This document shows positions 1 to 18,565 of a stretch of 64,000 nucleotides of DNA, in pieces. The stretch spans positions 682,001 through 746,000 of the forward strand of contig NZ_CP016499.1 in the NCBI RefSeq assembly GCF_001713475.1. The letters run 5' to 3'. The DNA is from Agrobacterium sp. RAC06. GTDB taxonomy: Bacteria > Pseudomonadota > Alphaproteobacteria > Rhizobiales > Rhizobiaceae. Every line of letters starts with the position of its first letter. Position 1 is the first letter of the stretch. The position numbers and the translations under genes are program-made. Under the pieces are notes generated by a model, which did no database searches, was not told the DNA's origin, and was given only the letters and a program-made list of their open reading frames with translations.

Positions 1-463
1 TCAGGCCTGGATGGATCAGCCCGGCATATTTGACGCCTGGCACGTGGCGCGAGGAAGTGAACATGCCGTGGAAATCCCAGATAGACTTTTGCGCCTCGGG
101 GAAGTGCTCGGTCAGGAAGCCACCACCGTTCTTCTTGGAAAAGAAGCCATTGAAACCCCAGAGACTGTTGTCGAAGGCTCCAATGTCGAGAATGTCGACG
201 ACCAGCAGGTCGCCGGGTTGAGCGCCCTTGACGCCGATCGGCCCGGACAGGAAATGCACCTGGCTGAGGTCCACATCGCGCACATCAGCGGCATCGTCGT
301 CATTCTTGATCTGGCCGCCGGTCCAGTCATAGGTCTCGACCCGGAAGTCGTCGCCCGGCTCGACCCAGCAGGCCATCGGAATATCAGGGTGCCAGCGGTT
401 GTGGATCTTCTCGTTGGTATAGGGCGACTCGCTGAGGTCGACCTTGATCAGGGTATCGGGCAT
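1..463 (-). CDS. fmdA: Formamidase/acetamidase (FmdA family), C-terminus outside window
   Basis: This is the N-terminal ~154 residues of an FmdA/AmdA family amidase, which hydrolyses formamide or other short amides to ammonia and the acid. The protein starts MPDTLIKVDLSESPY and contains the family segments NRWHPDIPMA and HFLSGPIGVKGAQPGD, ending at GVKYAGLIHPGL where the window cuts it. The ATG at 461-463 follows a purine-rich stretch. It is the last visible gene of a leftward run after urtABCDE, 44 bases past the urtE stop, so amide import and hydrolysis are probably co-expressed. Family assignment is from recognised sequence; the true substrate is inferred from the family. Confidence 0.88.
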   Translation of the reverse strand, partial: MPDTLIKVDLSESPYTNEKIHNRWHPDIPMACWVEPGDDFRVETYDWTGGQIKNDDDAADVRDVDLSQVHFLSGPIGVKGAQPGDLLVVDILDIGAFDNSLWGFNGFFSKKNGGGFLTEHFPEAQKSIWDFHGMFTSSRHVPGVKYAGLIHPGL

Positions 464-507: not shown

Positions 508-1197
508 TCAGACGGAGAGGAAGCTGGAGACGCGCGCCTCGTCGATGCCGGCGCGCGGCGCCTCATGGACGATCTCGCCCTTTTCGATCACCAGCACCCG
601 GTCGGCCATGTCGAGCGCAAAGCTCAACACCTGTTCAGAGACGACGATAGAGAGACCGATCTCGTCGCGGATCCGGCAGAGCGTTCGCGCCATCTCCTTG
701 ATGATCGACGGCTGAATGCCTTCGGTCGGCTCGTCGAGCAGCAGCACCTTCGGCTTCGACGCAAGCGCGCGGGCGATTGCCAGCTGTTGCTGCTGGCCGC
801 CGGAGAGATTGCCGCCGCGCCGCCCCTTCATCTCGAGCAGCACGGGGAAAAGCTCGTAGATCTGCCCCGGCACGGACTTTTCGCCGGTAACAGTGAGCCC
901 CGTCTCGATGTTTTCCTGGACGGTGAGTGTGGAGAAGATCATCCGCCCCTGCGGCACATAGGCGAGCCCTTTGGCCACACGTTCGTAGCTTTCGAGCCGC
1001 TCGACCGGGGTCTCGCCGATCCGGATCGATCCGGCGGCGGAGGGCACGACCCCCATCAGCGACTTCATCAGCGTCGTCTTGCCCATACCGTTGCGACCCA
1101 TGATCGCAACGATCTCGGCGGGTTTGACGTCAAAGGACAGACCGTGAATGACCTCGCTCTGGCCATAACTGACCTTCAGTTTTTCGACAGACAGCAT
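508..1197 (-). CDS. urtE: Urea/amide ABC transporter ATP-binding protein UrtE
   Basis: This is one of the two ATPases of a branched-chain-amino-acid-type (HAAT) ABC importer for urea or short amides. The 229-residue protein has Walker A GRNGMGKT (residues 34-41), signature LSGGQQQQ (about 131-138) and Walker B VLLLDEP (about 150-156), which is the LivF/UrtE pattern. It follows urtD with a 9-base gap and precedes fmdA. Length and order (A-B-C-D-E) match classical urt operons. Because a formamidase rather than urease genes follows, the substrate may be formamide/acetamide as well as urea. That is inference from context. Confidence 0.93.
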   Translation of the reverse strand: MLSVEKLKVSYGQSEVIHGLSFDVKPAEIVAIMGRNGMGKTTLMKSLMGVVPSAAGSIRIGETPVERLESYERVAKGLAYVPQGRMIFSTLTVQENIETGLTVTGEKSVPGQIYELFPVLLEMKGRRGGNLSGGQQQQLAIARALASKPKVLLLDEPTEGIQPSIIKEMARTLCRIRDEIGLSIVVSEQVLSFALDMADRVLVIEKGEIVHEAPRAGIDEARVSSFLSV

Positions 1198-1206
1198 GAC
1201 GATCTC

Positions 1207-1980
1207 CTAGTGACCGAGATAGACTTCGATGACCCGGGGGTCGTTCTTGACGCGCTCCATGCTGCCTTCCGACAGGACCTTGCCCTGGTGCAGCACGGTG
1301 ACGCGGTGGGCGATGTCCTCGACGAACTTCATGTCGTGCTCGATGACGATGACCGACTGGTTCTTCGTGATCGTGTTGAGGAGCTCTGCTGTCTTGATGC
1401 GTTCGGCCACACTCATGCCGGCGACCGGCTCGTCGAGCATCAGAAGCCGTGGCTTCTGGATCAGCAGCATGCCGATCTCCAGCCACTGCTTTTGGCCATG
1501 GCTGAGGATCGCCGCGTCGGTATTCAGGTGATCCTTGAGGAAGATCAGTTCGGCCACTTCCTCGACCCGCTCGATCACCTCGCGGTCGCGTCGGAATGTG
1601 AGCGCGCCGAAGACGGAGCGGCCCCGCGGAAAGGAGAGTTCGAGGTTTTCGAAGACGGTGAGATCTTCGTAGATCGATGGATTCTGGAACTTGCGACCGA
1701 CCCCCGCATGCACGATCTCGTGCTCGCGCATTCGGGTGAGCTCGCGCCCATCGAAACGGATCGAACCGGACGTCGCCTTTGTGCGTCCGCAGATGAGGTC
1801 GAGGACCGTGGTCTTGCCGGCCCCGTTCGGGCCGATGATCACCCGGATCTCGTTCTCATCGACATAGAGCGAGAGATCGTTCACCGCCTTGAAGCCGTCG
1901 AATGACACGGTGAGCGCATCAATGCTGAGGATGAAGTCTCGGGCGGGCTGGGCAGCAACTTGCATGATCGCCTCCATCAT
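1207..1980 (-). CDS. urtD: Urea/amide ABC transporter ATP-binding protein UrtD
   Basis: This is the second ATPase of the urea-type importer (LivG/UrtD class), 257 residues. Walker A GPNGAGKT is at residues 50-57. The signature is LSHGQKQWLE instead of canonical LSGGQ, a variant typical of UrtD, and Walker B is LLMLDEPVAGM. The reading frame stays open far upstream inside urtC, but the start was placed at the ATG whose ATGA overlaps the urtC stop (1977-1980), the usual translational-coupling arrangement. The protein should sit on the cytoplasmic face with UrtE and drive the UrtB-UrtC channel. Confidence 0.92.
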   Translation of the reverse strand: MMEAIMQVAAQPARDFILSIDALTVSFDGFKAVNDLSLYVDENEIRVIIGPNGAGKTTVLDLICGRTKATSGSIRFDGRELTRMREHEIVHAGVGRKFQNPSIYEDLTVFENLELSFPRGRSVFGALTFRRDREVIERVEEVAELIFLKDHLNTDAAILSHGQKQWLEIGMLLIQKPRLLMLDEPVAGMSVAERIKTAELLNTITKNQSVIVIEHDMKFVEDIAHRVTVLHQGKVLSEGSMERVKNDPRVIEVYLGH

Positions 1981-3104
1981 TCGGCTGCTTGCGGCTGCGT
2001 CAGCGGCGCACGTTTCAGGAAGCCAGGCATCCGACGTGCGAAGAAGGGCTCGACATGGTCCTTGACGAGGCCCGCCAGGCCGTAGGGGAAGGCCATGACG
2101 ACAGCGATGAACAGACCGCCCATGGCGAACAGCCACAGCTCGGGGAAGCTCTCGGAAAAGGTCGTCTTGGCGGCATTGACGAGAAGCGCGCCATAGATCG
2201 CCCCGAACAGCGACAGGCGTCCGCCAACGGCCGCAAAGATCACCATCTCGATGGATGGCACGATGCCGACGAAGGACGGCGACATGAAGCCGACCTGCAG
2301 CGTGAACATCGCACCACCGATGGCTGACATCGCGGCGGCCAGGCAAAAGATGAAGATCTTGAAATTGGCAACGTCATAGCCGGAGAAACGAACCCGGTCC
2401 TCGCGGTCACGCATGGCAATCAGCAGCCGGCCGAATTTCGAGATGCGGACCGCCTGGGCGAGCAGCAGCACGCCGATCAACAGCACGGCGTTAACGAAGT
2501 AGAGGATCAGCTTTGCCTCGTCGGTACGAATATCCCAGCCGAGCAAAGTTCTGAGATCGGTGATCCCGTTGACACCGCCGGTATAGCCCTGCTGGCCGAT
2601 GATCAGGATGGTGAGGATCGCGGCAACGGCCTGGGTGATGATGGCGAAATAGACCCCACCGACCCGTCGCTTGAACATGGCCGCCCCGATGATGAAGGCG
2701 AAAACCGATGGCACCAGGATGATGGCCACAAGCGTGAAGGAGAAAGAATAGAAGGGCGCCCACCACGATGGCAACGCAGTGATCTGGTTCCAATCCATGA
2801 AGTCGGGAATACCCGGCGTCGATTGGATCTTCGTCGCTTCAGGCGTGGAGGCCTCAAGCTTCAGGAACATGGCCATGCAGTAGCCGCCGAGGCCGAAGAA
2901 GATCCCCTGACCGAGGCTGAGGATGCCGCCATTGCCCCACAGAAGCACGAGGCCGACGGCAACGAAGGCATAGGTCAGATACTTGCCGATCAGATTGAGC
3001 CGGAAGATGTCGAAGCCAAGGGGCAGAACCACGAGGAGCAGCGCGGCAAGGATAGCAAAGTAGAGCCATTCCTTGCGGGTAAAGAGAAAGCCGACAGCAG
3101 GCAT
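1977..3104 (-). CDS. urtC: Urea/amide ABC transporter permease UrtC
   Basis: This is an inner-membrane permease subunit of the urea-type ABC importer, 375 residues and strongly hydrophobic with about ten membrane segments. It contains the LivM-family stretch LLWGNGGILSLGQGIFFGLGG near residue 60 and the EAA-like region with RDREDRVRFSGYDVANFK. It begins 11 bases after the urtB stop and ends in an ATGA overlap with urtD. It pairs with UrtB to form the channel. Confidence 0.92.
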   Translation of the reverse strand: MPAVGFLFTRKEWLYFAILAALLLVVLPLGFDIFRLNLIGKYLTYAFVAVGLVLLWGNGGILSLGQGIFFGLGGYCMAMFLKLEASTPEATKIQSTPGIPDFMDWNQITALPSWWAPFYSFSFTLVAIILVPSVFAFIIGAAMFKRRVGGVYFAIITQAVAAILTILIIGQQGYTGGVNGITDLRTLLGWDIRTDEAKLILYFVNAVLLIGVLLLAQAVRISKFGRLLIAMRDREDRVRFSGYDVANFKIFIFCLAAAMSAIGGAMFTLQVGFMSPSFVGIVPSIEMVIFAAVGGRLSLFGAIYGALLVNAAKTTFSESFPELWLFAMGGLFIAVVMAFPYGLAGLVKDHVEPFFARRMPGFLKRAPLTQPQAAE

Positions 3105-3115
3105 GGGAGGTCTCC

Positions 3116-4042
3116 TTAGCGGCGGATGTTGAGGGAGAAGAGGCCTTGCGGGCGCAGCATCAGGATGCCCACGACGGTCAGCAGCGTCAGGACCTTGGCC
3201 ATGGAGCCGCTGAGGAAGAATTCCATCGTTGACTGGGCCTGGGAGATGGTGAAGGCCGAGGCGATGGTGCCGATCAAGCTACCTGCACCGCCAAAGACGA
3301 CAACGAGGAAGGTATCGACGATGTACAGCTGTCCGGCGGTCGGACCGGTCGAGCCGATCATGGTAAAGGCAGAACCGGCAATGCCGGCGATGCCGCAACC
3401 GAGACCGAAGGTCATGCGATCGACTTTCTTTGTATTGATACCGACGGCACCGGCCATGACGCGGTTCTGCACCACGGCGCGCACCCGCTTGCCCCAGGAG
3501 GAGCGATACATAAGGAAATAGACGGCGCCCGCGATGATCAGGGTAAGGGCCATGACGAAGAGACCGTTGAGCGGCACCTCGATCGTGTCACTGACGGCAA
3601 CGGAGCCCATCATCCAGTCGGGCAGGGTCACGCCGACCTCTCGGGCACCAAAGACCGAGCGATAGAGTTGCTGCAGGACGAGCGATAGGCCCCAGGTGGC
3701 GAGCAGCGTGTCCAGAGGGCGGCGGTAGAGATGGCGGATCAGCGCCCATTCCACGAACACGCCAAGCGAAAAAGAGGCGGCGAAAGCGAGCGCCATGGCA
3801 ACGAAGAAGTAGAAGGGGAAAAGCGCGGGCAGATAGGCAGTCACCAAAGTGGAGACGAGATAGGTGACATAGGCGCCAAGGATCATGAACTCCCCATGCG
3901 CCATGTTTATTACCCCCATCTGTCCGAAGATGATGGCAAGACCGAGCGCCATCAGCACGAAGACGGAAAACAGGATCAACCCTGTAAAACCCTGCATGGC
4001 CAGGATCGAGAAGAATTCACTATAGGTATACTCGCCGATCAT
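3116..4042 (-). CDS. urtB: Urea/amide ABC transporter permease UrtB
   Basis: This is the LivH-type permease subunit, 308 residues with about eight membrane helices. The family segment IIFGQMGVINMAHGEFMILG lies near residues 35-54. The start ATG at 4040-4042 (MIGEYTYSEF) has a GAGGTGA Shine-Dalgarno four bases upstream; the frame remains open upstream but encodes no permease-like sequence. An ATG five codons earlier is possible but lacks that ribosome site. An 80-base gap containing a terminator-like hairpin separates it from urtA, which probably sets the excess of binding protein over permease. Confidence 0.91.
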   Translation of the reverse strand: MIGEYTYSEFFSILAMQGFTGLILFSVFVLMALGLAIIFGQMGVINMAHGEFMILGAYVTYLVSTLVTAYLPALFPFYFFVAMALAFAASFSLGVFVEWALIRHLYRRPLDTLLATWGLSLVLQQLYRSVFGAREVGVTLPDWMMGSVAVSDTIEVPLNGLFVMALTLIIAGAVYFLMYRSSWGKRVRAVVQNRVMAGAVGINTKKVDRMTFGLGCGIAGIAGSAFTMIGSTGPTAGQLYIVDTFLVVVFGGAGSLIGTIASAFTISQAQSTMEFFLSGSMAKVLTLLTVVGILMLRPQGLFSLNIRR

Positions 4043-4122: not shown

Positions 4123-5385
4123 TTATTGATAGCCTTCCGGGAACGGGTCCGGCTCCATCAGGTCCGTCGTCTCGTAGACGACGTCGTACTGGCCGTCGGC
4201 ACGGGCGTGCCCGATGCGGGTCTTGGACCAAAGGTGGTGGTTCTCGTGGACCTTCACATAGCCTTCCGGTGCCGTCGTCAGTTCGATGCCAGGCGAAGCG
4301 GCGCGCACCTTGTCGATGTCGAAGGAACCAGCCTTCTCCACCGCCGCCTTCCACAGCCAAGGGCCGAGATAGGCGGCCTGGGTGACGTCGCCGATGACGA
4401 TGTCGTCGCCCCACATCTTCTTGAACTCGGCGACAAAGGACGTGTTGTTGTCGTTCGGCAGGCTCTGGAAGTATTTCATGGCGGCATAGGCGCCCACCAT
4501 GTTCTCGCCGCCAATGCCGAGGATCTCGTCCTCGGTGACCGAGATCGTGAGAAGCAGCGGCTTCTCCTTGGTCATATCAATGCCGGCAGCCTTCAGCTGC
4601 TTGTAGAACGCAACGTTCGAGCCACCGACGACGATGGCATAGATGACATCGGGCTTCTTCAGCTTGATCTTGTTGATCACCGAATTGAACTGGGTATGCC
4701 CGAGCGGGTAGTATTCCTCGCCGACAACTTCGAGGCCGAGTTTCTCGATGTGCTTGCGGGCGATCTTGTTGGACGTGCGCGGCCAGATATAGTCAGAGCC
4801 GAGCAGATAGAAGCTCTTTGCGCCCTTCTCCTTTACCACCCAGTCAATGCCAGCGAGAATCTGCTGGGTTGCTTCCTGACCGGTGTAAATGACGTTGGGC
4901 GACTGCTCGAGCCCTTCGTAGAATGTCGGATAGTAAAGCATGCCGTTATACTGCTCGAAGACGGGCAGAACAGCCTTGCGCGAAGCCGAGGTCCAGCAAC
5001 CGAAGACGGCCGCGACCTTGTCCTCAACGAGCAACTTCTTCGCCTTTTCGGCGAAGGTCGGCCAGTCGGAGGCACCGTCTTCCTGGATCACCTCGATCTT
5101 GCGACCAAGAATGCCGCCACTGGCATTGATCTGTTCGATGGCGAGCTTTTCAGCTTGAACCGAGCCGGTCTCGGAAATCGCCATGGTGCCGGTAACAGAA
5201 TGCAGGATGCCCACTTTCACGGTGTCGTCGGTCACAGCCAGGCCAGTGGCATTGACGACTGCAGTGGATGTGTCCTGCGCGAAGATCGGCGTGCTCAGCG
5301 CCGTCAACAGCGGGATCGATGCCACGCCTGCAAGCAGGGCTCGGCGACTGATGCTCAGCGGTGGGATTTTGGGGTCGTCAGACAT
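4123..5385 (-). CDS. urtA: Urea/amide ABC transporter substrate-binding protein UrtA
   Basis: This is the periplasmic binding protein of the urea-type importer, 420 residues. Start MSDDPKIPPLSISRRALLAG was chosen because it leads into a twin-arginine export signal (SRRALLAG, hydrophobic core, then IFAQD, cut near residue 35). The upstream extension of the open frame is not signal-like. The mature part has the Peripla_BP_5 sequence DTVKVGILHSVTGTMAISET and the UrtA-typical VFGCWTSASRKAVLPVFE and LYYPTFYEGLEQSPNV. Export folded through Tat fits the family. It leads the operon and shares its upstream region with the divergent transporter-kinase gene at 5716. Confidence 0.92.
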   Translation of the reverse strand: MSDDPKIPPLSISRRALLAGVASIPLLTALSTPIFAQDTSTAVVNATGLAVTDDTVKVGILHSVTGTMAISETGSVQAEKLAIEQINASGGILGRKIEVIQEDGASDWPTFAEKAKKLLVEDKVAAVFGCWTSASRKAVLPVFEQYNGMLYYPTFYEGLEQSPNVIYTGQEATQQILAGIDWVVKEKGAKSFYLLGSDYIWPRTSNKIARKHIEKLGLEVVGEEYYPLGHTQFNSVINKIKLKKPDVIYAIVVGGSNVAFYKQLKAAGIDMTKEKPLLLTISVTEDEILGIGGENMVGAYAAMKYFQSLPNDNNTSFVAEFKKMWGDDIVIGDVTQAAYLGPWLWKAAVEKAGSFDIDKVRAASPGIELTTAPEGYVKVHENHHLWSKTRIGHARADGQYDVVYETTDLMEPDPFPEGYQ

Positions 5386-5715
5386 GGCGTGCCTCTTCGT
5401 CGTTGTGGAGGGTTGCAGCAGGGCCAGCAGCGAGGGAACCGGCCAACTGGAGGTAACCTCGTCGCAATTGGTGCAACGCAACAATGGAGCGTTTGACGTA
5501 TACCCACCCGGGTCTTTGTCCCTTAAGGTCGTATCCAGTTGAGGCAATCCGACCGAGAAACAAAGAGAAACCAAGGACCTGCGCTACCCGTCCATTTGAC
5601 CCGCATCCGTCTTTTGTAGGGTTATGAAAACGCTCGTTCTTTGACTGGTACGAGAATTGCTTCGCGAGAGGGCGTACAGCGCGCGACCGGCCGTCGCCGG
5701 TCGCAGGGGGATGAA
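5386..5715. promoter_or_regulatory. Divergent promoter region between urtA and the transporter-kinase gene
   Basis: These 330 bases between two divergent start codons must hold the promoters of the urt operon and of the sensor gene. I see no convincing sigma-54 (-24 GG/-12 GC) site. There is an ACCCGGGT palindrome near 5508 and A/T-richer sequence around 5560-5640, but no operator I can assign. A LuxR-family regulator is encoded downstream of the sensor, so a NarL-type dyad is worth looking for here. Confidence 0.4.
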
Positions 5716-8700
5716 TTGAACCAGGCCGAGCGGATTCCCAGAATTCGGCGGACCTACAACAAGTGGGTCGCCAACCAGACCTTGGAGGATTATGCCCTCC
5801 GCTTCACCGCACACGAGGTGCGTCGCTTCTCGCCGGGGCGGATCGCCAATACGGCACTGGGCGCCATTTCATTCCTGGCGCTGGAGGCGATCGGCGGAGC
5901 TATAACCCTGAGCTACGGCTTCACCAATGCAACGCTTGCGATTCTGGTCGCATGCTCGGTCATGCTGGTGATCGGCATCCCGATCGCCTACAGCGCCGCC
6001 CGTTACGGGGTGGATATCGATCTGCTCACCCGCGGTGCCGGTTTCGGCTATCTCGGCTCCACGGTCACCTCGCTGATCTATGCCTGCTTCACCTTCCTCT
6101 TCTTCGCCATTGAGGCCGCCATCATCGCCAAAGCGCTGGAGTTGATTACAGGGCTGCCGCTCTCGATCGGCTATATCGTCAGTGCAGTCGCGATCATTCC
6201 GCTGGTCACCCACGGCGTGACGTTCATCAGCCGGTTTCAAGCCTGGTCGCAGCCCTTCTGGGTGGTGCTACAGCTTGCTCCCTTTGTCTTCATAGCATCT
6301 CAGGGGCTGCAGCCGGTGCGGGACTGGACCGGTTACACCGGGCTCCTCGGCCCGATGGACCACAGCTTCGATGTTGCGCTTTTTGGTCTCTGCTCGGCCG
6401 TGGTCTTCTCGCTGGCCGCACAGATCGGCGAGCAGGTGGACTATCTCCGCTTCCTGCCACGTAAAACCGAAAAGAACCGAATCCAGTGGTGGGTCGCTCT
6501 GCTCAGTGCAGGTCCCGGCTGGATCGTGATCGGCGGGCTGAAGATTCTGGCCGGCTCCTTCCTCGCCTTTTACGCCTTCCGCAATGGGGTTGCATTCGAG
6601 GATGCATCCGACCCGACGCAGATGTATCTGACCGTGTTCAGCCAAATGCTGGGCTCACCCGAATTTGCGCTCGGCGTCACCGGCATCTTTGTTGTGATCT
6701 GCCAGGTCAAGATCAATGTCACGAACACCTATGCAGGCTCCATCGCCTGGTCGAACTTCTTCTCGCGCCTGACCCACAGCCATCCGGGCCGTGTGGTCTG
6801 GCTCGTGTTCAACGTGATGATCGGCCTGTTGCTGATGGAATTCGGCATCTACAAGGCGCTGGAGACCGTGCTCGGCCTCTATTCTATTGTTGCGATCGCC
6901 TGGACCGCCTCGATCGCCGCCGACCTGATGATCGCAAAGCCTCTCGGCCTGTCGCCACCGATCATCGAATTCAAGCGGGCCCATCTCTACGATATCAATC
7001 CGGTTGGCTTCGGCTCGATGACGATCGCCGTGCTCGCGGCCTTCGCCGCCTATGGCGGGCTGATGGGTGAGCTCGCCACCAAGATTTATGTCTACGTCGC
7101 ACTCGCTTTGCCTTTCCTGCTCGTACCCTTGATTGCGAAGGCGACGGGCGGGCGCTACTACATCGCCAGAACGAGCTGCGTTGAGGCCGACGCCCAGGGG
7201 CATACCGGATGTTCGATCTGCGAACTGAAGTTCGACCGGGAGGACATGGCGCATTGCCCAGCCTATTCGGGACCGATCTGCTCACTTTGCTGCTCACTGG
7301 ACGCACGATGCCACGACATTTGCAAGTCCGATGCGCGGTTCAGCCAGCAGGCGAAGTCACTTGCCCAGTCCTGGCTGCCGGCCGGAGTGGCCGAGGCGGT
7401 GAACGGCAGCGTGATGCGCTATCTGGCGCTTTTCTCAGTCGTGAACGCCTTTATGGGCAGCGTCTTCTGGCTCATCCACTTCCAGAGCACGATCGAATCT
7501 CCGGATGCTGCGGAACTGATCGGTTTCGAGCTCTGGAAGCTCTACATCATCCTCTTCATCCTGGCCGGCATCGTCACCTGGCTTTTCGTTCTGGCACAGG
7601 AGAGCCGTGACTTCGCAGAGGAAGAGGCCAGTCGCCACACCCGCCTGCTCATGGACGAAATCCGGGCGCATGAAGAAACCGACCGGCTGCTGCAGAAGGC
7701 GAAGGAGGCGGCGGAATCGGCCAATCTTGCCAAGAGCAAATATGTTGTTGGCCTCAGCCACGAACTACGCACGCCGCTGACCGCGATCCTGGGTTATGCC
7801 CAGGTGCTTGAGCGCCAGCAGGGAATGCCGAACATCGTCCACAATGCCGCCCGGACCATCAAGCGCAGCGGCGAGCATCTCGCCGACATGATCGAGGGGT
7901 TGCTTGATATCTCCAAGATCGAGGCCGGCAAATTTGAGATCTACCGCCACAAAATCGCGCTCGGTCCGTTCCTCGACCAGATTGTCGATATGTTCAGCCT
8001 GCAAGCCCAGGCCAAGGGTATTGGCTTCGAGTTCCGCGCCACCTCCCCCATCCCGGATTATGTGTTCGCCGACGAGAAGCGCCTGCGACAGGTGCTGATC
8101 AACATGCTCTCAAACGCCATCAAGTTCACCCATCGCGGGCAGGTCTGCTTCACGCTATCCTATCGCGGCCAAGTGGCCACCTTTGAAATCGAGGATACCG
8201 GCGTCGGCATCAAGCAGCAGGATCTGGAGCGGATCTTCCTGCCGTTCGAACGCGCGGAGCAACCACACGGCCAGGCCCAGCCCCCAGGAACGGGGCTTGG
8301 GCTCACGATCACGAGACTGTTGGTCGAGATCATGGGCGGAGACCTGAAGCTCGCAAGCCGCCCGGGTAAGGGCACACAGTTCACCATCCGGCTGATGCTC
8401 TCCGAGGCGCAAAGGCCTGAGGACATGGTGGCGCCGGCTCTGGCCGTCGCCGGCTATGAGGGACGCCGCCGGATGATCCTGATAGCCGATGACGATACGA
8501 CCCAGCGGGCGCTGATGGAGGAGGTTCTGACCCCGCTCGGTTTCTCGGTGGTAACGGTGAATGATGGTCCGGCCTGCCTCTCCACGCTCGCTCTCCATCG
8601 CCCGGATATTGTCATTCTCGATCTTGCGATGCCCAGCATGTCCGGGTGGGACGTGGCAAAGCGCATCCGCCAACGTTACGGCCGGGATCTTCCCATCCTG

Positions 8701-9093
8701 ATCTTGTCGGCCGATGCCGGAAACGAACGCACAAAGCCCGAATATGCCCCGCTCTTCGATTCCTACCTGATCAAGCCCTTCAATTTCGAAGGACTGTTCG
8801 AACGTCTGGCGACCCTCATTCCGCTGACATGGATTCTCGATGACGGCGTTCACGTCGAGGCTTCCCAACGACCTTCTTTCACGCTGGAGGAACTGCCCGA
8901 GCCGCGCAAGCTACAGCAGCTCAAAACTCTGGGCGAGACAGGCTTCGTCCGTTCGATAGAAGCGATGCTCAACGATCTGGAAATCTCCACCCCTGGAACA
9001 GAGCGCTTCTGCAGGCATATGCGCCAACTGGCCACGAACTATCGCCTCCGCGAGTTCCTGGCGATTATTGAGGATACCAAGAGCCATGCCTGA
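5716..9093 (+). CDS. NCS1 transporter-like / Cys-rich / histidine kinase / receiver fusion sensor
   Basis: This is a multi-domain membrane sensor of about 1125 residues. Residues ~15-470 are a 12-helix NCS1 (purine-cytosine permease, CodB-like) module. Residues ~487-536 hold nine cysteines (CSIC, HCP, ICSLCC, RCHDIC), suggesting metal binding. Two more membrane helices and a coiled linker lead to the HisKA box SHELRTPL (phospho-His ~682), a HATPase_c domain (ADEKRLRQVLINMLSNAIKF, GTGLGLTI) and a receiver with ILIADDD and phospho-Asp ~969 in ILDLAMPSMSGWD. It resembles the CbrA idea of a transporter fused to a kinase. Start is uncertain: TTG 5716 has AGGGGG five bases upstream, while the frame opens at TTG 5641. 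Next to urtABCDE-fmdA it probably senses a nitrogenous solute; this is inference. Confidence 0.85.
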   Translation: MNQAERIPRIRRTYNKWVANQTLEDYALRFTAHEVRRFSPGRIANTALGAISFLALEAIGGAITLSYGFTNATLAILVACSVMLVIGIPIAYSAARYGVDIDLLTRGAGFGYLGSTVTSLIYACFTFLFFAIEAAIIAKALELITGLPLSIGYIVSAVAIIPLVTHGVTFISRFQAWSQPFWVVLQLAPFVFIASQGLQPVRDWTGYTGLLGPMDHSFDVALFGLCSAVVFSLAAQIGEQVDYLRFLPRKTEKNRIQWWVALLSAGPGWIVIGGLKILAGSFLAFYAFRNGVAFEDASDPTQMYLTVFSQMLGSPEFALGVTGIFVVICQVKINVTNTYAGSIAWSNFFSRLTHSHPGRVVWLVFNVMIGLLLMEFGIYKALETVLGLYSIVAIAWTASIAADLMIAKPLGLSPPIIEFKRAHLYDINPVGFGSMTIAVLAAFAAYGGLMGELATKIYVYVALALPFLLVPLIAKATGGRYYIARTSCVEADAQGHTGCSICELKFDREDMAHCPAYSGPICSLCCSLDARCHDICKSDARFSQQAKSLAQSWLPAGVAEAVNGSVMRYLALFSVVNAFMGSVFWLIHFQSTIESPDAAELIGFELWKLYIILFILAGIVTWLFVLAQESRDFAEEEASRHTRLLMDEIRAHEETDRLLQKAKEAAESANLAKSKYVVGLSHELRTPLTAILGYAQVLERQQGMPNIVHNAARTIKRSGEHLADMIEGLLDISKIEAGKFEIYRHKIALGPFLDQIVDMFSLQAQAKGIGFEFRATSPIPDYVFADEKRLRQVLINMLSNAIKFTHRGQVCFTLSYRGQVATFEIEDTGVGIKQQDLERIFLPFERAEQPHGQAQPPGTGLGLTITRLLVEIMGGDLKLASRPGKGTQFTIRLMLSEAQRPEDMVAPALAVAGYEGRRRMILIADDDTTQRALMEEVLTPLGFSVVTVNDGPACLSTLALHRPDIVILDLAMPSMSGWDVAKRIRQRYGRDLPILILSADAGNERTKPEYAPLFDSYLIKPFNFEGLFERLATLIPLTWILDDGVHVEASQRPSFTLEELPEPRKLQQLKTLGETGFVRSIEAMLNDLEISTPGTERFCRHMRQLATNYRLREFLAIIEDTKSHA

Positions 9094-10006
9094 CGCATTC
9101 GATGGCAACCGTGTTCTGATTGTAGACGATTCCAGCGAGGCGCTCGCCATGCTCTCGGACGCCCTCAGCCTTGAGGGCCTTGAGGTGCACACCTCAAGCA
9201 GCGGAAGATCAGCCATTTCCATGGCCAATTTCAAAGTGCCTGACATCGTCTTGATGGACGCGATGATGCCTGGACTGGACGGTTTCGAGACCTGCAGGAT
9301 TCTGAAGGCGGCCCGCGGCTTCGAAGATCTGCCGGTAATCTTCATGACCGGGTATAACGAGAATGAGCATGTCGTGAAGGCGCTTGCATCAGGCGGCGTC
9401 GACTTTGTCGTCAAGCCGATCCGGCTCGATCAGCTCTTTGCCCGCATGCGTGTCCATCTGAGCAATTCTAAGCGCGCGCGGTCGGCCCGTCATGCTCTCG
9501 ATTCTACGGGGCGCTGGATTGTCGCTTGCGACACGAACGGGCTGATCGCCTGGTCGACACCCCAGGCATCGGATCTCTTGGCCAAGGTTGGTATACGGGC
9601 AGACACCAACAGCTATCTGCCGCTCGAAATCCTCTCCTGGCTGGCGGACGGCGCTTGCAATGATGTTGGCGGCAATCCGAACGTCTTTCATTACGCGCGG
9701 CTTGGCCACGACATTGAGTTTCGGCGCCTTTCGGACAGCGGGGACGACGAGATTTTGCTGCGGCTTGTCGACCGTCGTCGCGGCGCCGACGAGGAACAGC
9801 TTGCAAGGGCCTTCGGCGTGACACTGCGTGAGGCGGAGGTTCTCCTATGGGTGGCCCACGGAAAGTCAAACAAGGAAATTGCAGATATCCTGGACATGTC
9901 ACCGCGCACCGTAAACAAGCACATGGAGCAGATCTTCAACAAACTGGCCGTTGAGAAGCGGACCTCCGCCGCCACTCTGGCCGTGCGAGTGCTGTGGCGG
10001 GAATGA
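9086..10006 (+). CDS. Two-component response regulator, receiver plus LuxR-type HTH
   Basis: This is a DNA-binding response regulator of 306 residues. An N-terminal receiver (VLIVDDSSEA, phospho-Asp in IVLMDAMMPGLDGFE, Lys in FVVKPI) spans residues 1-125. A ~95-residue middle region resembles a degenerate PAS-type module (RWIVACDTNGLIAWSTPQ). The C-terminal LuxR/GerE helix-turn-helix has LREAEVLLWVAHGKSNKEIA and MSPRTVNKHMEQIFNKL. The ATG at 9086 overlaps the end of the sensor kinase by eight bases, so the two are translationally coupled and are almost certainly cognate partners. Targets are not shown; the divergent urt operon is the obvious candidate. Confidence 0.9.
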   Translation: MPDAFDGNRVLIVDDSSEALAMLSDALSLEGLEVHTSSSGRSAISMANFKVPDIVLMDAMMPGLDGFETCRILKAARGFEDLPVIFMTGYNENEHVVKALASGGVDFVVKPIRLDQLFARMRVHLSNSKRARSARHALDSTGRWIVACDTNGLIAWSTPQASDLLAKVGIRADTNSYLPLEILSWLADGACNDVGGNPNVFHYARLGHDIEFRRLSDSGDDEILLRLVDRRRGADEEQLARAFGVTLREAEVLLWVAHGKSNKEIADILDMSPRTVNKHMEQIFNKLAVEKRTSAATLAVRVLWRE

Positions 10007-10385: not shown

Positions 10386-11666
10386 ATGACGGAACTCACC
10401 ACATCGTTCAGCTATAGCCCGGTCCTCGTCGCCCTTTCAGTGGTGGTGGCAATTCAGGCGGGATACGTCGGCATCAGTCTCGCGCTTCTCATACCAGCCG
10501 CCTTTGCCAACCGACGCCGCCTCCTGATCGCAGGCTCGGCGATGACGCTCTCAGTCGGCATCTGGAGCATGCATTTCATCGGCATGCTGGCGATCACCAC
10601 CGCCGTCGCGATCGACTATGCCGTCGTACCCACGCTTCTCTCATTCCTCATTTGCTGTCTTGTCACGGGCGTCGCGATCTACCTTGCGAGCCTGCGATCG
10701 CAGCGCCTTCTAGTGATCGCCGCACTGCTCATGGGCATTGGCATCACCACAATGCACTATGTCGGCATGACGGCCGTGCATTCGGTATTTCATCTCACAC
10801 ACGATCCCGCCTACGCTCTGGCCAGTATAGCGATTGCCATCGCTGCGTCCGGCCTTGCGCTCTGGCTCGCCTTTTCCGCCGACAGGCGACCGCCACTGTT
10901 TCTCTGTGCCGTGGTGCTCGGCTGCGCAGTATCGGGTATGCACTATATGGCGATGGCAGGAACGACACTGCATCTGGCCGCTGCAGAGGTGGCAAACACG
11001 ACATCCTTGATGTCCGGCGACATACTGGCAGCCATTGTGAGCGTGGTCGCCTGTAGCATCTCGGCCGTGTTCATGCTGGCGCTGGTCCCAACAGAGCCGA
11101 AAGATACGCGCGGCGAGAACGCCTGGAACGCGGCACATGCTGTGCCAGACGCGCGCCCACCGGAAGGCCCCCAATCGGACATTACCCCAACGATCTCGCT
11201 AAATCCGGCCGAGCAGCACCTCATGCAGACCGCGACCGAACCCGGCCCGGTGGTGGCCGCAGTCGCTGCGTCGCCTGCCCCAATTCTGTCCGCAGACGAT
11301 CTCCTGCTGCCGATCGAAAGGAACGGCAAGCGTTTTCACATTGCAGCAGATGACATCGTTTCGGTTCATTCCAACGCGCATTACACCTATATCTTCAACG
11401 GTCGTGACGACCTTTTCTGCCCACTGTCGATCTCCGACATCGCAGCGCGCCTGCCCGAGACGATTTTTTCCCGGGTCCATCGCAGCTATATCGTGAACCT
11501 CTTATTCGTTGTCCGCATCAAGAAGACCGGTGACTCGGGCGTGGTCGAACTGGATACGCCGATCAGGCGTACGGTGCCTGTCAGTCGGTCGAGGCTGACA
11601 GGCTTTCGGTCTGAGCTCGCCGCCTTCAAAGCATCGAGAAGCGGCACCACCCCCGACTGTCGTTAG
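10386..11666 (+). CDS. coxC: MHYT-LytTR membrane-bound transcriptional regulator (CoxC-like)
   Basis: This 426-residue protein has a seven-helix MHYT domain at the N-terminus with three signature motifs: MHFIGM (62-67), MHYVGM (123-128) and MHYMAM (185-190). A Pro/Ala-rich linker (~230-315) leads to a LytTR DNA-binding domain (~318-413; DIVSVHSNAHYTYIF, FSRVHRSYIVNL). MHYT domains have been proposed to bind a metal and sense diatomic gases such as O2, CO or NO. CoxC and CoxH of the Oligotropha cox cluster have this architecture. Its position just before coxMSL and the LytTR-type repeats in the following gap indicate a CO-responsive regulator of the cox operon. The C/H assignment is by position only. 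Confidence 0.85.
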   Translation: MTELTTSFSYSPVLVALSVVVAIQAGYVGISLALLIPAAFANRRRLLIAGSAMTLSVGIWSMHFIGMLAITTAVAIDYAVVPTLLSFLICCLVTGVAIYLASLRSQRLLVIAALLMGIGITTMHYVGMTAVHSVFHLTHDPAYALASIAIAIAASGLALWLAFSADRRPPLFLCAVVLGCAVSGMHYMAMAGTTLHLAAAEVANTTSLMSGDILAAIVSVVACSISAVFMLALVPTEPKDTRGENAWNAAHAVPDARPPEGPQSDITPTISLNPAEQHLMQTATEPGPVVAAVAASPAPILSADDLLLPIERNGKRFHIAADDIVSVHSNAHYTYIFNGRDDLFCPLSISDIAARLPETIFSRVHRSYIVNLLFVVRIKKTGDSGVVELDTPIRRTVPVSRSRLTGFRSELAAFKASRSGTTPDCR

Positions 11667-11681
11667 GTCAATTCTCCTGCC

Positions 11682-11732
11682 GCATTTCGTGCGCAACTCG
11701 CTGCATTTCGTGCAAATGGAGGCGTTTTGGTG
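11682..11732 (+). promoter_or_regulatory. Tandem direct repeats, putative LytTR operator for coxM
   Basis: Two identical 11-base repeats GCATTTCGTGC lie at 11682-11692 and 11703-11713, a period of 21 bases or two helical turns. A third, imperfect core TTTGGTG (against TTTCGTG) follows at 11726-11732, 20 bases on. LytTR proteins, including the CO sensor RcoM, are known to bind such direct repeats on one DNA face; the TTnnnG core reported for RcoM sites is present in each copy. The location, between a LytTR gene and coxM with ~110 bases left to the coxM start, fits an activator site. Repeats are seen; the bound protein is inferred. Confidence 0.6.
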
Positions 11733-11842
11733 TGCTTGCCATTGTTTGGCGGCAACATTCATCGCCTGCTGTGCTGACTCGTCAGAGGCCAAGGAGGTTC
11801 GGCCTTTAATGATGCGAGACGAAGCTTTGGGAGGAGCGACGG

Positions 11843-12709
11843 ATGATACCTGGCACGTTCGATTACCATCGGCCAACGACAGTCGAAAGCGCTGTCGCAT
11901 TGTTGATGCAACTCGGCGAGGATGCCCGGCCGCTGGCCGGCGGTCACAGCCTGATACCGCTGATGAAGACACGGCTGGCAGCGCCTGAGCATCTCGTTGA
12001 TCTCACCGCTATCGAGGGGTTGCGTCGCCTGGAAGTGGTCGGCACTGATGTGATCATCGGGGCGATGACAACACAGCATTCGGTCATCACCAGCACCTTG
12101 CTCGCAGACCTCGTTCCAATCCTTCGCGAGACAGCCCTCGTCATTGCCGACCCACAGATCCGCTACAAGGGCACGATCGGCGGCAATTGCGCCAACGGTG
12201 ATCCCGGCAATGACATGCCGGCTCTGATGCAGTGTCTTGGAGCCAGCTACCAGCTGACCGGCACCGGTGGCAGCCGCCAGGTTCCGGCGCGGGATTTCTA
12301 TCTCGGTGCCTATGAGACCGCTCTGGAACCTGGCGAAATCCTGACCGAGATCCGCATTCCGGTGCCGCCTGCCGGTCATGGCTACGGCTATGAAAAGCTC
12401 AAGCGCAAGGTTGGAGACTATGCGGCGGCGGCGGCGGCAGTGGTGATCACCATGGCGGGAGGCACCTGCACCAGTGCCTCCATCGGCCTGACGAATGTGT
12501 CCGAAACGCCGCTCTGGGCGTCCGAGGCAGCTGGCATTCTGGTTGGCAGCACGCTCGATGCGGCAACAGTCAATGCGGCAGTCGCTGCGGCCGAGGCCAT
12601 CACCAATCCGGCCTCCGATATGCGTGGGCCTGCCGAATACCGCACCAAGATGGCCGGTATCATGCTGCGCCGGGCACTCGAGCGGGCACAGACCCGCGCC
12701 AAGGGTTGA
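11843..12709 (+). CDS. coxM: Aerobic carbon monoxide dehydrogenase, medium (FAD) subunit CoxM
   Basis: This is the FAD subunit of the CoxLMS molybdenum-copper CO dehydrogenase, passing electrons from the iron-sulfur subunit to the quinone pool. At 288 residues it has the FAD motifs AGGHS (32-36) and TIGGN (111-115), the same spacing as CoxM of Oligotropha, and the C-terminal CO_deh_flav_C domain ([18 protein letters not shown]). GGGAGGAG lies six bases before the ATG. It is first in coxMSLDEFG, with coxS starting ten bases after its stop. Confidence 0.95.
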
Positions 12710-12719
12710 GGGGGAAACA

Positions 12720-13220
12720 ATGACAAAATCGCATATCAAAGTCACGATCAATGGCAAGGCTGTCGAGGCTCTCGTCGAGCCGCGCACGCTGCTGATCCAC
12801 TTCCTGCGCGAGCAGCAGAACCTGACGGGCGCCCATATCGGCTGCGACACCGGCCATTGTGGGGCCTGCACGGTCGATATGGACGACATGTCGGTGAAGA
12901 GCTGCATGACCTTCGCCGTCCAGGCCGATGGCGCCAGCATCACCACGATTGAAGGCGTCGCCAATCCGGACGGAACGCTCAGCGCTCTGCAGGAGGGCTT
13001 CCGCATGATGCACGGCCTGCAATGCGGATACTGCACGCCGGGCATGATCTTGCGCGCCCATCGTCTTCTTCAGGAAAACGCCAATCCGACCGAGGAGGAA
13101 ATTCGCTACGGCATCGCCGGCAATCTCTGTCGTTGCACCGGCTATGTGAACATCGTCAAGGCCATCCAGTATGCGGCGGCCAAGATCAATGGAACACCGT
13201 TTCAGGAGGCCGCGGAATGA
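12720..13220 (+). CDS. coxS: Aerobic carbon monoxide dehydrogenase, small (2Fe-2S) subunit CoxS
   Basis: This is the iron-sulfur subunit of CO dehydrogenase, 166 residues. The plant-type [2Fe-2S] Cys set is in [12 protein letters not shown] (about 41-52) with its fourth Cys in KSCMTF. The second cluster is bound by QCGYCTPGM (about 100) and NLCRCTGY (about 137). Start ATG 12720 follows GAGGGGGAA. The stop TGA overlaps the coxL ATG (ATGA at 13217-13220), implying coupled translation and balanced stoichiometry. Confidence 0.95.
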
Positions 13221-15646
13221 ACGAGCAAGTCAAGATTGACACCGATCGTGCCGAGCGGACCGAAAAGCTGCAGGGCATGGGCTGCAAGCGCAAGCGCGTC
13301 GAGGACATCCGCTTTACGCAAGGCAAGGGCTCCTATGTCGACGACCTGAAACTGCCGGGCATGTTGTTCGGCGATTTCGTCCGGTCGCCCCACGCGCATG
13401 CGCGCATCGTCAGCATCGACACGTCGCGCGCCAAGGCGCTGCCGGGGGTGATTGCGGTGCTGACAGCTGCCGATCTGAAGCCGCTTGGCCTGCACTACAT
13501 GCCGACGCTTGCCGGCGACGTCCAGGCGGTTCTGGCTGAAGAGAAAGTGCTGTTCCAGAACCAGGAAGTCGCCTTCGTCATCGCCGAGGATCGCTACATC
13601 GCCTCTGATGCGACCGAACTTGTTGATGTCGTCTATGAGGCGCTGCCCTGCATCGTCGACCCGTTCAAGGCCATGCTCCCGGATGCGCCGATCCTGCGCG
13701 AAGACATCAAGGACAAGATGGTTGGCGCCCACGGACCGCGCAAACATCCCAACCACATCTTCGAATGGCAGATCGGCGACAGACAAGCGACAGACGATGT
13801 TTTTGCCAAGGCGGATGTGACGATCAAGGAAATGCTGGTCGACCACCGCACCCATCCGTCGCCGCTCGAAACCTGCCAGTCGGTCGCCTCGTTCGACAAG
13901 GTCAAGGGCGAACTGACGCTCTGGGGTACCTTCCAGGCACCGCATGTCATCCGCACGGTCGTCTCGCTGATCTCCGGCCTGCCGGAACACAAGATCCACG
14001 TGATCGCGCCGGATATCGGCGGTGGCTTCGGCAACAAGGTCGGCGCCTATGCCGGCTATGTCTGCTCTGTCGTCGGCTCGATTGTACTGGGTGTGCCGGT
14101 CAAATGGGTGGAAGACCGGATGGAGAACCTCTCCACCACATCCTTTGCCCGCGACTATCACATGACCACGGAACTGGCCGCCACCAAGGACGGCAAGATC
14201 CTCGGCATGCGGGTGCATGTGCTGGCCGATCACGGTGCCTTCGATGCCTGCGCCGACCCGTCCAAATGGCCGGCCGGCTTCATGAACATCTGCACCGGCT
14301 CTTATGACATCCCGGTGGCACATCTGGCCGTCGATGGTGTCTATACCAACAAGGCGTCCGGCGGTGTCGCCTATCGCTGTTCGTTCCGGGTAACGGAGGC
14401 GGTGTTTGCCATCGAGCGCGCCATCGAAGTGCTGGCCCAGAAACTCGGCATGGATGCCGCGGAGCTGCGGATCAAGAATTTCATCAAGGCCGAGCAGTTT
14501 CCCTATCACTCGGCGCTCGGCTGGGAATATGACAGCGGCGACTATCACACCGCCATGAAGAAGGCGATGGACGCCATCGACTATAAGGCCCTGCGTGCCG
14601 AGCAGGCGGAAAAACGCGAGGCATTCAAACGCGGCGAAACGCGCGAGTTGATGGGCATCGGCATTTCGTTCTTCACCGAAATTGTCGGCGCGGGACCGGC
14701 CAAGAACTGCGACATTCTCGGCATCGCGATGTTCGATTCCGCTGAGATCCGCATCCATCCGACCGGCTCCGTGATTGCCCGGATGGGCACCAAGAGCCAG
14801 GGGCAAGGGCATGAGACGACCTATGCCCAGATCATCGCCACCGAACTTGGCATTCCCGCCGACGACATCATGATCGAGGAAGGCAATACCGATACCGCAC
14901 CTTATGGTCTCGGCACCTACGGCTCCCGCTCAACCCCGGTTGCCGGCGCTGCAACCGCAGTGGCTGCCCGCAAGATCAAGGCCAAGGCCCAGATGATCGC
15001 CGCCCATATGCTCGAAGTGCATGAGGGCGATCTGGAGTGGGATATCGACCGCTTCCGCGTCAAGGGCCTGCCAGAGAAGTTCAAGACGATGAAGGAGATC
15101 GCCTGGTCGGCCTATAATGCCCCGCCGCCGAACCTCGAGCCCGGTCTGGAGGCGGTCAACTATTACGAGCCGCCCAACATGACCTATCCCTTCGGCGCCT
15201 ATTTCTGCGTCATGGATATCGACGTCGATACGGGTGTGGCCAAGACGCGGCGCTTCTACGCGCTGGACGATTGCGGCACGCGCATCAATCCCATGATCAT
15301 CGAGGGACAGGTGCATGGCGGGCTGACGGAAGCCTTTGCCTGTGCCATGGGCCAGGAGATCCGCTACGACGAGATGGGCAATGTCATGGGGGCGTCCTTC
15401 ATGGACTTCTTCCTGCCGACCGCCGTCGAGACGCCGCATTGGGAGACGGACTTTACCGTCACGCCCTCGCCGCATCATCCGATCGGTGCCAAGGGCGTCG
15501 GTGAAAGCCCGCATGTCGGCGGCGTGCCGTGCTTCTCCAATGCGGTCAACGACGCCTATGCCTTCCTCGATGCCGGCCATATCCAGATGCCGCATGATGC
15601 CTGGCGGCTGTGGAAGGTCGGCGAACGTCTCGGGTTGCACGGGTAA
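13217..15646 (+). CDS. coxL: Aerobic carbon monoxide dehydrogenase, large (molybdopterin) subunit CoxL, form I
   Basis: This is the catalytic subunit oxidising CO to CO2 at a Mo-S-Cu centre with molybdopterin cytosine dinucleotide. At 809 residues it carries the form I active-site motif AYRCSFR at 385-391. The copper-binding Cys is residue 388 and the catalytic Glu of GVGESP is residue 763, the same numbers as in Oligotropha carboxidovorans CoxL. This separates it from form II (AYRGAGR) proteins, whose CO activity is doubtful. The MoCo-binding GGGFG and QGQGHET segments are present. Start ATG 13217 overlaps the coxS stop; homology begins at this Met although the frame is open further upstream. 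Confidence 0.97.
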
Positions 15647-15660
15647 GTACGGATCAGTCA

Positions 15661-16542
15661 ATGGCAGTGACACTTCCTCAGGAGAAGATTGCCGCGCAGA
15701 TGGCCGCGGTCGGGTATGTGCCCGATCGCGACCTGTCGACCGCGCTATGGCTGATGGACAGCCTGTCACGGCCGCTGCTTCTGGAAGGCGAGGCAGGTGT
15801 CGGCAAGACGGAGGTCGCACGCGCCCTGGCGCTGGCGCATGAAACAAAACTGATCCGGTTGCAATGCTATGAAGGGCTGGACCAGAGTTCGGCCCTCTAT
15901 GAATGGAATTACCAGCGGCAGTTGCTGGCGATCAAGGCGCGCGAAGGCATCAATGCCGACGAGGTCGAAGAGGCGATCTTCTCCGAAAAATACCTGCTTG
16001 AGCGGCCTCTGCTGGCCGCCATCCGGCAGGCAAAGGCACCGGTTCTGCTGATCGACGAGGTTGATCGGGCAGACGAGGAGTTCGAGGCCTTTCTTCTGGA
16101 GCTTCTATCGGATTTCCAGGTGTCGATACCGGAACTCGGGACGATTACGGCGACGACCATTCCGCGGGTTATCCTGACCAGCAACGGAACCCGCGAGTTG
16201 TCCGACGCGCTCAGGCGCCGGTGCCTCTACCACTACGTCGATTTTCCTGATGTCGACCGCGAGGCGCGGATCATCCTGTCGCGACTGCCGGGCATTGATG
16301 CGGCGCTGGCCTTGCAGATCGCTTCGATGGTCGGCCTCATCCGCAAGGAGGACCTGCGCAAGACACCGGGTGTCGCCGAAACGCTCGATTGGGCCGCAAC
16401 GCTTGCCGGCCTCGATATCCGGCATCTGCATGACGAGCCCGAGGCGGTGCATGAGACCTTGATGTGTCTGATCAAGACAGCGGAGGACAAGGCCCGCATG
16501 TCGCGCCAGGTTACCGAGCGACTGCTCGGAAGGGTGGCGTGA
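15661..16542 (+). CDS. coxD: MoxR-type AAA+ ATPase CoxD (CO dehydrogenase maturation)
   Basis: This is an AAA+ chaperone-like ATPase of the MoxR family, 293 residues. It has Walker A GEAGVGKT (43-50), Walker B VLLIDEVDRADEEF (about 119-132) and a sensor region ILTSNGTRELSDALRRRC. In Oligotropha, CoxD acts with CoxE and CoxF to insert sulfur and copper into the CoxL active site. ATG 15661 lies 15 bases after the coxL stop; an upstream in-frame extension overlaps coxL and is not conserved-looking. CoxE follows after a single base. Confidence 0.93.
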   Translation: MAVTLPQEKIAAQMAAVGYVPDRDLSTALWLMDSLSRPLLLEGEAGVGKTEVARALALAHETKLIRLQCYEGLDQSSALYEWNYQRQLLAIKAREGINADEVEEAIFSEKYLLERPLLAAIRQAKAPVLLIDEVDRADEEFEAFLLELLSDFQVSIPELGTITATTIPRVILTSNGTRELSDALRRRCLYHYVDFPDVDREARIILSRLPGIDAALALQIASMVGLIRKEDLRKTPGVAETLDWAATLAGLDIRHLHDEPEAVHETLMCLIKTAEDKARMSRQVTERLLGRVA

Positions 16543-16543
16543 G

Positions 16544-17731
16544 ATGAGCGCGCTGCGGATGGCCGAGCCAGATCTGGGCGACTTGATGCGGACGAAGCTC
16601 TCCGGCTTCGTTGCGACGCTGCGCGACAATGGTTTCATTGTCGGTCTTGCGGAATATCGCGACGCGCTCACTGTGATGAGCGGCGACAGCGCCAGCCGTC
16701 CGTCGCGGCTGCGTCCGGCACTCCGATCGCTCTTCTGCAGCCGACATTCCGACTGGACGATGTTCGATGAGATTTTTGATGCCTTCTGGCTAAAACGGGG
16801 CATGAAATCTGCCACGCGGATGTCGGGCGCACCGCAAAAGGCCCCTGACGGGGTGCAGGCGGCCGCGTCCGGAGCGCGCGGTCAGGGGGCCCAAGAACAC
16901 GCGGATCATGTCCAGCGTGGTCAGGGTGAAGAGGCTTTCGAGACCGGCGAAACCCGGCGTGAGGGCGCGTCCCGCGCCGAGTTCATCGGCAAGACCGACT
17001 TCCGGCACCTGACGCATCCGGACGATCTCGCCGAGGCGCATCGCCTGGCGGAACGCCTCGCCGTTTCGATGCGTGCGCGCATCACGCGGCGCATGCGGGC
17101 ACGGCGCCAAGGCCAGCGGCTTGATCTCAGGCGCACGATCCACAAGAGCATCGCGAATGGCGGCACGCCGATACAGTTGGTGTTTCGGAAGCGGCTGGAA
17201 AAACCGCTGCGGCTGGTCGTGCTTCTCGACGGTTCCGGCTCGATGAGCCTCTACTCGGCGGTGTTCCTGCGCTTCATGCATGGCGTGCTCGACGCATTTC
17301 GCGAGGCCGAGGCATTCCTCTTTCACACGCGCCTCGTTCATATCGCGCCGGCGCTGCGGGAGCGCGATCCGCAGCGTGCCGTCGAGCGGATGGCGCTGAT
17401 GGGCCAGGGAAGCGGCGGCGGAACCCGCATCGGCGACAGTCTTGCAACCTTCAACAGATGGCATGCGAAACGCTGTATCCATTCGCGCACCTGCGTGATG
17501 ATCGTGTCTGATGGTTACGACACGGGGCCGGCTGAGCGGCTGGGCGACGAGATGCGGGCGCTCCGGCGGCGGTGCCGGCGGATCGCATGGCTGAACCCGA
17601 TGATCGGCTGGCAGGACTATGCCCCGGAGGCGGCCGGTATGAAGGCGGCGCTTCCTTACGTCGATCTCTTTGCGCCGGCTCACAACCTGGAGAGCCTCAA
17701 GGCGCTCGAACCCTATCTGGCGAGGATCTGA
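16544..17731 (+). CDS. coxE: VWA-domain protein CoxE (CO dehydrogenase maturation)
   Basis: This is a von Willebrand factor A protein of 395 residues, the partner of the MoxR ATPase CoxD. The MIDAS motif DGSGSMS begins at Asp229, with the later MIDAS threonine in GGGTRIGD and the Asp in IVSDGYD. The N-terminal half (LGDLMRTKLSGFVATLRDNG) is the CoxE family domain, followed by a low-complexity charged linker (about 95-140). It starts one base after coxD and ends three bases before coxF. It is presumably peripheral to the inner membrane and needed for assembly of the copper-sulfur centre. Confidence 0.92.
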   Translation: MSALRMAEPDLGDLMRTKLSGFVATLRDNGFIVGLAEYRDALTVMSGDSASRPSRLRPALRSLFCSRHSDWTMFDEIFDAFWLKRGMKSATRMSGAPQKAPDGVQAAASGARGQGAQEHADHVQRGQGEEAFETGETRREGASRAEFIGKTDFRHLTHPDDLAEAHRLAERLAVSMRARITRRMRARRQGQRLDLRRTIHKSIANGGTPIQLVFRKRLEKPLRLVVLLDGSGSMSLYSAVFLRFMHGVLDAFREAEAFLFHTRLVHIAPALRERDPQRAVERMALMGQGSGGGTRIGDSLATFNRWHAKRCIHSRTCVMIVSDGYDTGPAERLGDEMRALRRRCRRIAWLNPMIGWQDYAPEAAGMKAALPYVDLFAPAHNLESLKALEPYLARI

Positions 17732-17733
17732 GC

Positions 17734-18552: not shown

Positions 18553-18565
18553 TGGGAGAACAATC

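Follow-up and report, generated by a model that had tools for sequence, protein, structure and literature searches.

A hybrid histidine kinase with an NCS1-related permease domain, its LuxR-type partner and a candidate operator upstream of urtA in Agrobacterium sp. RAC06

In the accessible parts of the sources, the closest described systems are the SLC5-STAC kinases CbrA, CrbS and RpuS, in which a small module likewise connects a transporter domain with a histidine kinase; the partner of CrbS is the LuxR-family regulator CrbR, which needs an imperfect inverted repeat (PMC5715377, PMC13022988, PMC9100948). In the ammonium sensor kinase of Kuenenia, as presented in the available text, the histidine kinase carries a fused ammonium transporter domain (PMC5764959). 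Here we analyzed a 64,000-nt window of Agrobacterium sp. RAC06 (NZ_CP016499.1, positions 682,001-746,000), in which a hybrid histidine kinase fused to an NCS1-related permease domain is encoded next to a LuxR-type response regulator and diverges from a urea/amide uptake operon, urtABCDE-fmdA. Comparative computation brought out the fused architecture, a set of conserved cysteines, the gene linkage, a palindromic motif and the covariation of this motif with the regulator. We propose, with a probability of about 0.6, that the protein acts as a transceptor kinase, sensing a short-chain amide or urea and activating the uptake operon via its LuxR partner.

Architecture of the kinase and its cysteine module

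The kinase gene (5716..9093, forward strand) is one open frame of 1125 codons, and its TTG start at 5716 agrees with that of an annotated Peteryoungia homologue. The permease domain (residues 1-485, 5716..7170) is followed by a cysteine module (residues 499-536, 7210..7323) and by two predicted long helices coinciding with hydropathy peaks (residues 565-594 and 599-664, 7408..7707), which are probably an extra transmembrane hairpin leading into the kinase. Pfam places HisKA at residues 674-738 (7735..7929), HATPase_c at residues 786-895 (8071..8400) and a receiver domain at residues 921-1031 (8476..8808), all on the forward strand. The pairing with a LuxR-type regulator was correctly anticipated: directly after the kinase, a protein with REC and GerE helix-turn-helix (HTH) domains by Pfam is encoded on the same strand (9086..10006), its in-frame ATG at 9086 overlapping the kinase stop. 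A C-terminal tail of the kinase past the receiver (residues 1040-1125, 8836-9090) has no Pfam match, and many homologues have a length of only about 1050 aa, compared with 1125 aa in the window.

The original prediction of an NCS1 transporter joined to a full hybrid kinase holds for the fusion itself, and its NCS1 label is supported by profile homology and fold but not by Pfam, whose NCS1 model (PF02133) gave no match to the permease domain or in the window's own genome. Profile-profile comparison aligned the domain with permeases over 444 columns (E 1.4e-41, 28% identity); some of these permeases carry PF02133. The predicted fold of the domain most closely resembles those of CodB and Mhp1. 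Since the miss is taken as a limit of the model, we call the domain NCS1-related rather than a member of NCS1. The names given to its standalone relatives are purine-cytosine, cytosine or allantoin permease, and NCS1 transporters carry nucleobases, hydantoins and allantoin. Sequence searches of the PDB with the permease part and with profiles returned no transporter match, and a viral fold library gave weak transporter matches only. The N-terminal domain did not qualify as an SLC5 transporter domain of the kind found in the SLC5/STAC kinases, and Pfam found no match between permease and kinase, the presence of a STAC model in the library being unchecked. In addition, a homologue 47% identical to the permease part is encoded in two phage-collection records (CAKLQH020000001.1 and CAKLQF020000001.1, Acinetobacter phage MD-2021a; 328 and 379 kb), which are probably misfiled bacterial DNA.

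The segment between permease and kinase contains nine cysteines (C488, C499, C502, C514, C522, C525, C526, C532 and C536) and had been suspected to be a metal site. Eight are invariant in all 178 aligned sequences (58 from loci, including the window copy, and the 120 best-listed of 8000 database matches), whereas C488 is not conserved. The spacing C-x2-C-x11-C-x7-C-x2-CC-x5-C-x3-C is exact in 120/120 of these best-listed homologues and in 111/111 proteins of a second list, which was itself found with the cysteine module. Three loci in which the initial match ended before the module (L153-L155) also carry it, behind a longer insert. Eight invariant cysteines with fixed spacing are what would be expected of the ligands in a binuclear RING/FYVE/PHD-like finger. 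Modelled alone, the module folded with low confidence (mean predicted local distance difference test score 66.9) and weakly resembled FYVE, RING and PHD fingers, which is weak evidence that it may be a structural binuclear zinc finger rather than a metal sensor. No other architecture containing the module was seen among the best 120 of 2656 matches, in a search that reached proteins of 0.55-1.75 times the query length. Among 11 shorter or odd module-containing proteins that were inspected, some are N-terminally full and others begin further in; in P0290 (20.5-kb contig) and P0330 (405-kb contig) the start falls immediately ahead of the module, with the DNA upstream possibly encoding the permease.

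Gene linkage, candidate operator and regulator

The permease part was matched in 52 of 398 genomes of the phylum, about one in eight. Fifty-seven places outside the window's genome were fetched, and 56 of them encode both permease and kinase parts; the remaining one (L156), a standalone permease matched only at 26-28%, was dropped. By tblastn, urt, fmdA, amiE or urease genes lie within about 8 kb at 54 of these 56 phylum-sample loci (the stretches examined measured up to about 19 kb), and the two unlinked ones are a contig ending near the kinase start (L113) and a 4.8-kb contig (L152). A relative of the regulator is present at 54/56 loci, or at 55/56 with laxer cut-offs. In an earlier set, biased in that it was found with patterns from the window protein and including two loci that contain only the start of the permease (L052 and L053), 50 of 56 loci are linked to urea or amide genes. 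The link to urea and amide genes that had been suspected from the window alone is thus conserved in both sets. Formamidase was named through an annotated relative, and aliphatic amidase and urease through family models as well.

In the window, urtABCDE and fmdA are encoded on the reverse strand, opposite to the kinase. UrtA (4123..5385), UrtB (3116..4042), UrtC (1977..3104) and UrtE (508..1197) exceed the curated NCBIfam cut-offs of TIGR03407, TIGR03409, TIGR03408 and TIGR03410, respectively, which identifies a Urt-type importer; urtD (1207..1980) was named from its position and a blast match to an annotated relative only. The 5' part of fmdA (formamidase) occupies 1..463, with the remainder outside the window (L068 9231-10463), and its name rests on 98% identity to an annotated Peteryoungia fmdA. 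UrtA of the window type occurs in 38 of the 398 genomes, all 38 of which are among the 52 kinase genomes; this is co-occurrence within a genome, not adjacency. Six loci (L147, L149, L150 and L153-L155) have urease or fmdA genes without urtA in the stretch examined, and urtA may lie elsewhere in those genomes. The genome of strain RAC06 also encodes a second kinase, 51% identical and with its own regulator (L069, L167; about 4.31-4.33 Mb); a second urt operon, which comes with urease genes, is about 4 kb away. In a rhizobial group (L127, L128, L131, L145 and L069), the urea-type kinase pair has a LivK-type amino acid transport cluster as its neighbour.

A candidate palindrome, about ATACGTCAANTTGACGTAT, was found upstream of urtA. 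The gapped word TACG-N8-CGTA occurs in 32 of 65 non-redundant urtA-kinase intergenic regions and in none of six shuffled sets. A matrix derived from this word beats 99% of shuffles in 64/66 regions, 65 of which were used for training; outside training, 12 of 14 loci score at least 15 upstream of urtA (the exceptions being L130 and L146), or 13 of 15 when the second urt operon of the window's own genome is added. A score of at least 14 was obtained upstream of urtA in 46/46 cases of the earlier set and in 36/44 of the phylum sample. No palindrome reaching 14 was found at urease-type urtA genes without an adjacent kinase, either in 20 kinase-less genomes (hand-picked near the top of a list, leaving out G297 and G365, whose scores exceed that of the last genome taken) or in 19 others from the same list with a kinase elsewhere, neither group being random; the best control scored 10.7 and the best shuffle 14.0. 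In the window, the matrix matches the unstranded candidate site ACAATGGAGCGTTTGACGTATACC (5481..5504), centered about 107 bp upstream of the urtA ATG (5385) and the sole match above 12 in the 64 kb. Its left half-site is degenerate, as it is in related rhizobia. The only TACGT-N6-ACGTA in the window's own genome lies upstream of the second urt operon, with the urease genes behind it. A second genomic copy of TTTGACGTATA (L168) was considered as a site and rejected with a score of -15.9.

The motif varies together with the regulator. In SPRTVxKHL, which we take from the LuxR family to lie in the HTH with x at a recognition position, x is N in 43/43 rows whose right half-site is not of the GCGTA type, and D (4) or T (4) in 8 of 12 GCGTA-type rows (Fisher 4.1e-7, a statistic that ignores kinship). 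The rows come from those 55 of 66 loci in which the regulator could be aligned right through to the end; L121, lacking a real site, was excluded. Rows with D or T fall into three distinct groups on the kinase tree (L026; L105, L107 and L108; L119, L124, L136 and L137). This covariation points to the LuxR partner as the reader of the site. On the kinase tree, which was built quickly and has long branches, four changes are needed to account for the labels amide-linked (76 rows) and urea-linked (30 rows); these labels were assigned by identity cut-offs, L069 by hand, and eight unlabelled rows were left out. No residue set among the aligned kinases accounts for these switches, and residue 323 was judged too weak to serve as a specificity marker.

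Further downstream of the pair, 10386-18600 holds an MHYT-LytTR regulator and, after it, what appears to be an aerobic CO dehydrogenase cluster, whose large subunit exceeds the TIGR02416 cut-off and whose remaining genes are presumably other cox genes.

Proposed signalling route and alternative readings

In the proposed mechanism, the permease domain would bind, and perhaps move, a short-chain amide or urea, and the resulting conformational change would pass through the eight-cysteine, probably zinc-bound module and the transmembrane hairpin to the kinase core. Phosphate would then be transferred to the LuxR-type partner, which may bind the palindrome upstream of urtA and activate urtABCDE-fmdA; elsewhere, the target operon would be one with amiE, or urt genes with urease. 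The target operon and the operator are well supported by the computation, while the ligand class, a short-chain amide or urea, is a reasoned guess. For the window copy, formamide or another short-chain amide is favoured over urea because its operon contains fmdA and the second pair sits near the urt-urease operon. The broader idea of an undescribed and widespread transceptor class, with an NCS1-related amide receptor that switched to urea several times, a zinc finger coupling it to the kinase as STAC does and a regulator-operator code across the phylum, is more tentative, and we put it at somewhat short of even odds.

Several observations weigh against the proposed transceptor. Six of the 56 loci in the earlier set have no urea or amide gene in the examined stretch; one of these is cut at the kinase (L027) and two extend only about 3-4 kb beyond the pair (L041 and L043), but L033, L036 and L044 lack such genes over about 7.5-10 kb on each side and are true exceptions. 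The urtA upstream region scores below 14 at eight of 44 phylum-sample loci (L107, 13.4; L115, 12.9; L124, 12.2; L146, 11.9; L126, 8.4; L121, 1.7; L130, 0.1; L134, -4.3). The motif controls are all of the urease type, because every urtA of the fmdA type that was seen came with the kinase. In addition, the covariation classes are phylogenetically clustered, four of the 12 GCGTA-type rows retain N, and a single column (residue 323) is what tracks the amide and urea labels, in 4/4 urea clades. Finally, the Pfam NCS1 model does not match the permease domain directly, a substrate is not readable from the NCS1 family alone, and activation rather than repression is assumed.

The permease domain could instead read another signal, such as a ureide or nucleobase (for example, allantoin) or the nitrogen state, with the urt operon as its output only. 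Allantoin-type ligands are usual for NCS1 and are reflected in the names of the standalone relatives, but the widely shared neighbours are urt, fmdA, amiE/amiB and urease, and the neighbours that were named include no purine or allantoin gene, although clusters shared by 3-6 loci are mostly unnamed; we consider this reading unlikely. Alternatively, the kinase could monitor the Urt ABC importer, via UrtA or the importer's permeases, rather than free solute, which would suit its presence in all 38 genomes with window-type UrtA. However, several copies stand beside urease or fmdA with no urtA in the stretch, and the permease domain retains its fold and many invariant residues, which makes monitoring of the importer quite improbable. 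Least probable, and by our estimate very much so, is a cysteine module that is itself the sensor and gates the kinase by metal binding or redox change. Its invariant cysteines and its placement between permease and kinase would fit such a role, whereas its resemblance, albeit weak, is to structural binuclear zinc fingers, and the shared neighbours are genes for urea and amide uptake and hydrolysis rather than for metal or redox functions. As urease depends on nickel, some link to metal may still exist.

Comparison with known systems

Urea and short amides commonly serve as sources of nitrogen; the proposed transceptor, if confirmed, would provide a dedicated urea/amide receptor together with its operator and target operon. 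Operons of the window's kind have been described: in the accessible part of the report on Bradyrhizobium japonicum, a second Urt-type cluster lies beside formamidase and aliphatic amidase genes and its cargo is argued to be an amide, not urea, with no mention of a histidine kinase or response regulator and no discussion of a regulator (PMC3098086). Ectopseudomonas guguanensis G3 has a urtABCDE operon, a hybrid kinase and a LuxR regulator near fmdA (PMC13296017). This neighbourhood looks like that of the window, and its kinase is a possible member of the family; it appears there as an annotation listing, and the available portion of the paper gives neither a permease domain nor a motif or function for it. 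In the literature searched, with subscription papers mostly outside its scope, no characterised member of the family was recognised, and the palindrome upstream of urtA is new here.

CodB and Mhp1 share the fold of the N-terminal domain but are standalone transporters without a kinase, 14-16% identical over the aligned part. The Kuenenia ammonium sensor kinase, insofar as the available text describes it, resembles the window protein in placing a nitrogen-solute transporter domain on a histidine kinase, but differs in transporter fold and solute, and that text mentions no cysteine module. As had been suggested, CbrA-type kinases use a different transporter family: in the accessible sources, the domain of CbrA, CrbS and RpuS is SLC5, whereas that of the window protein is NCS1-related, and an eight-cysteine module with a transmembrane hairpin stands where theirs have STAC. 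The genes linked to those kinases are for histidine, acetate or pyruvate, while the family described here is linked to urea and amide genes. If the proposed role is correct, a further transporter fold besides SLC5 and Amt has been converted to a kinase receptor. The amide/urea switches on the tree, together with the regulator-site covariation, make both ligand and DNA specificity directly testable. The system is real, widespread and conserved, and constitutes a new variant among transporter-fused kinases such as CbrA and CrbS.
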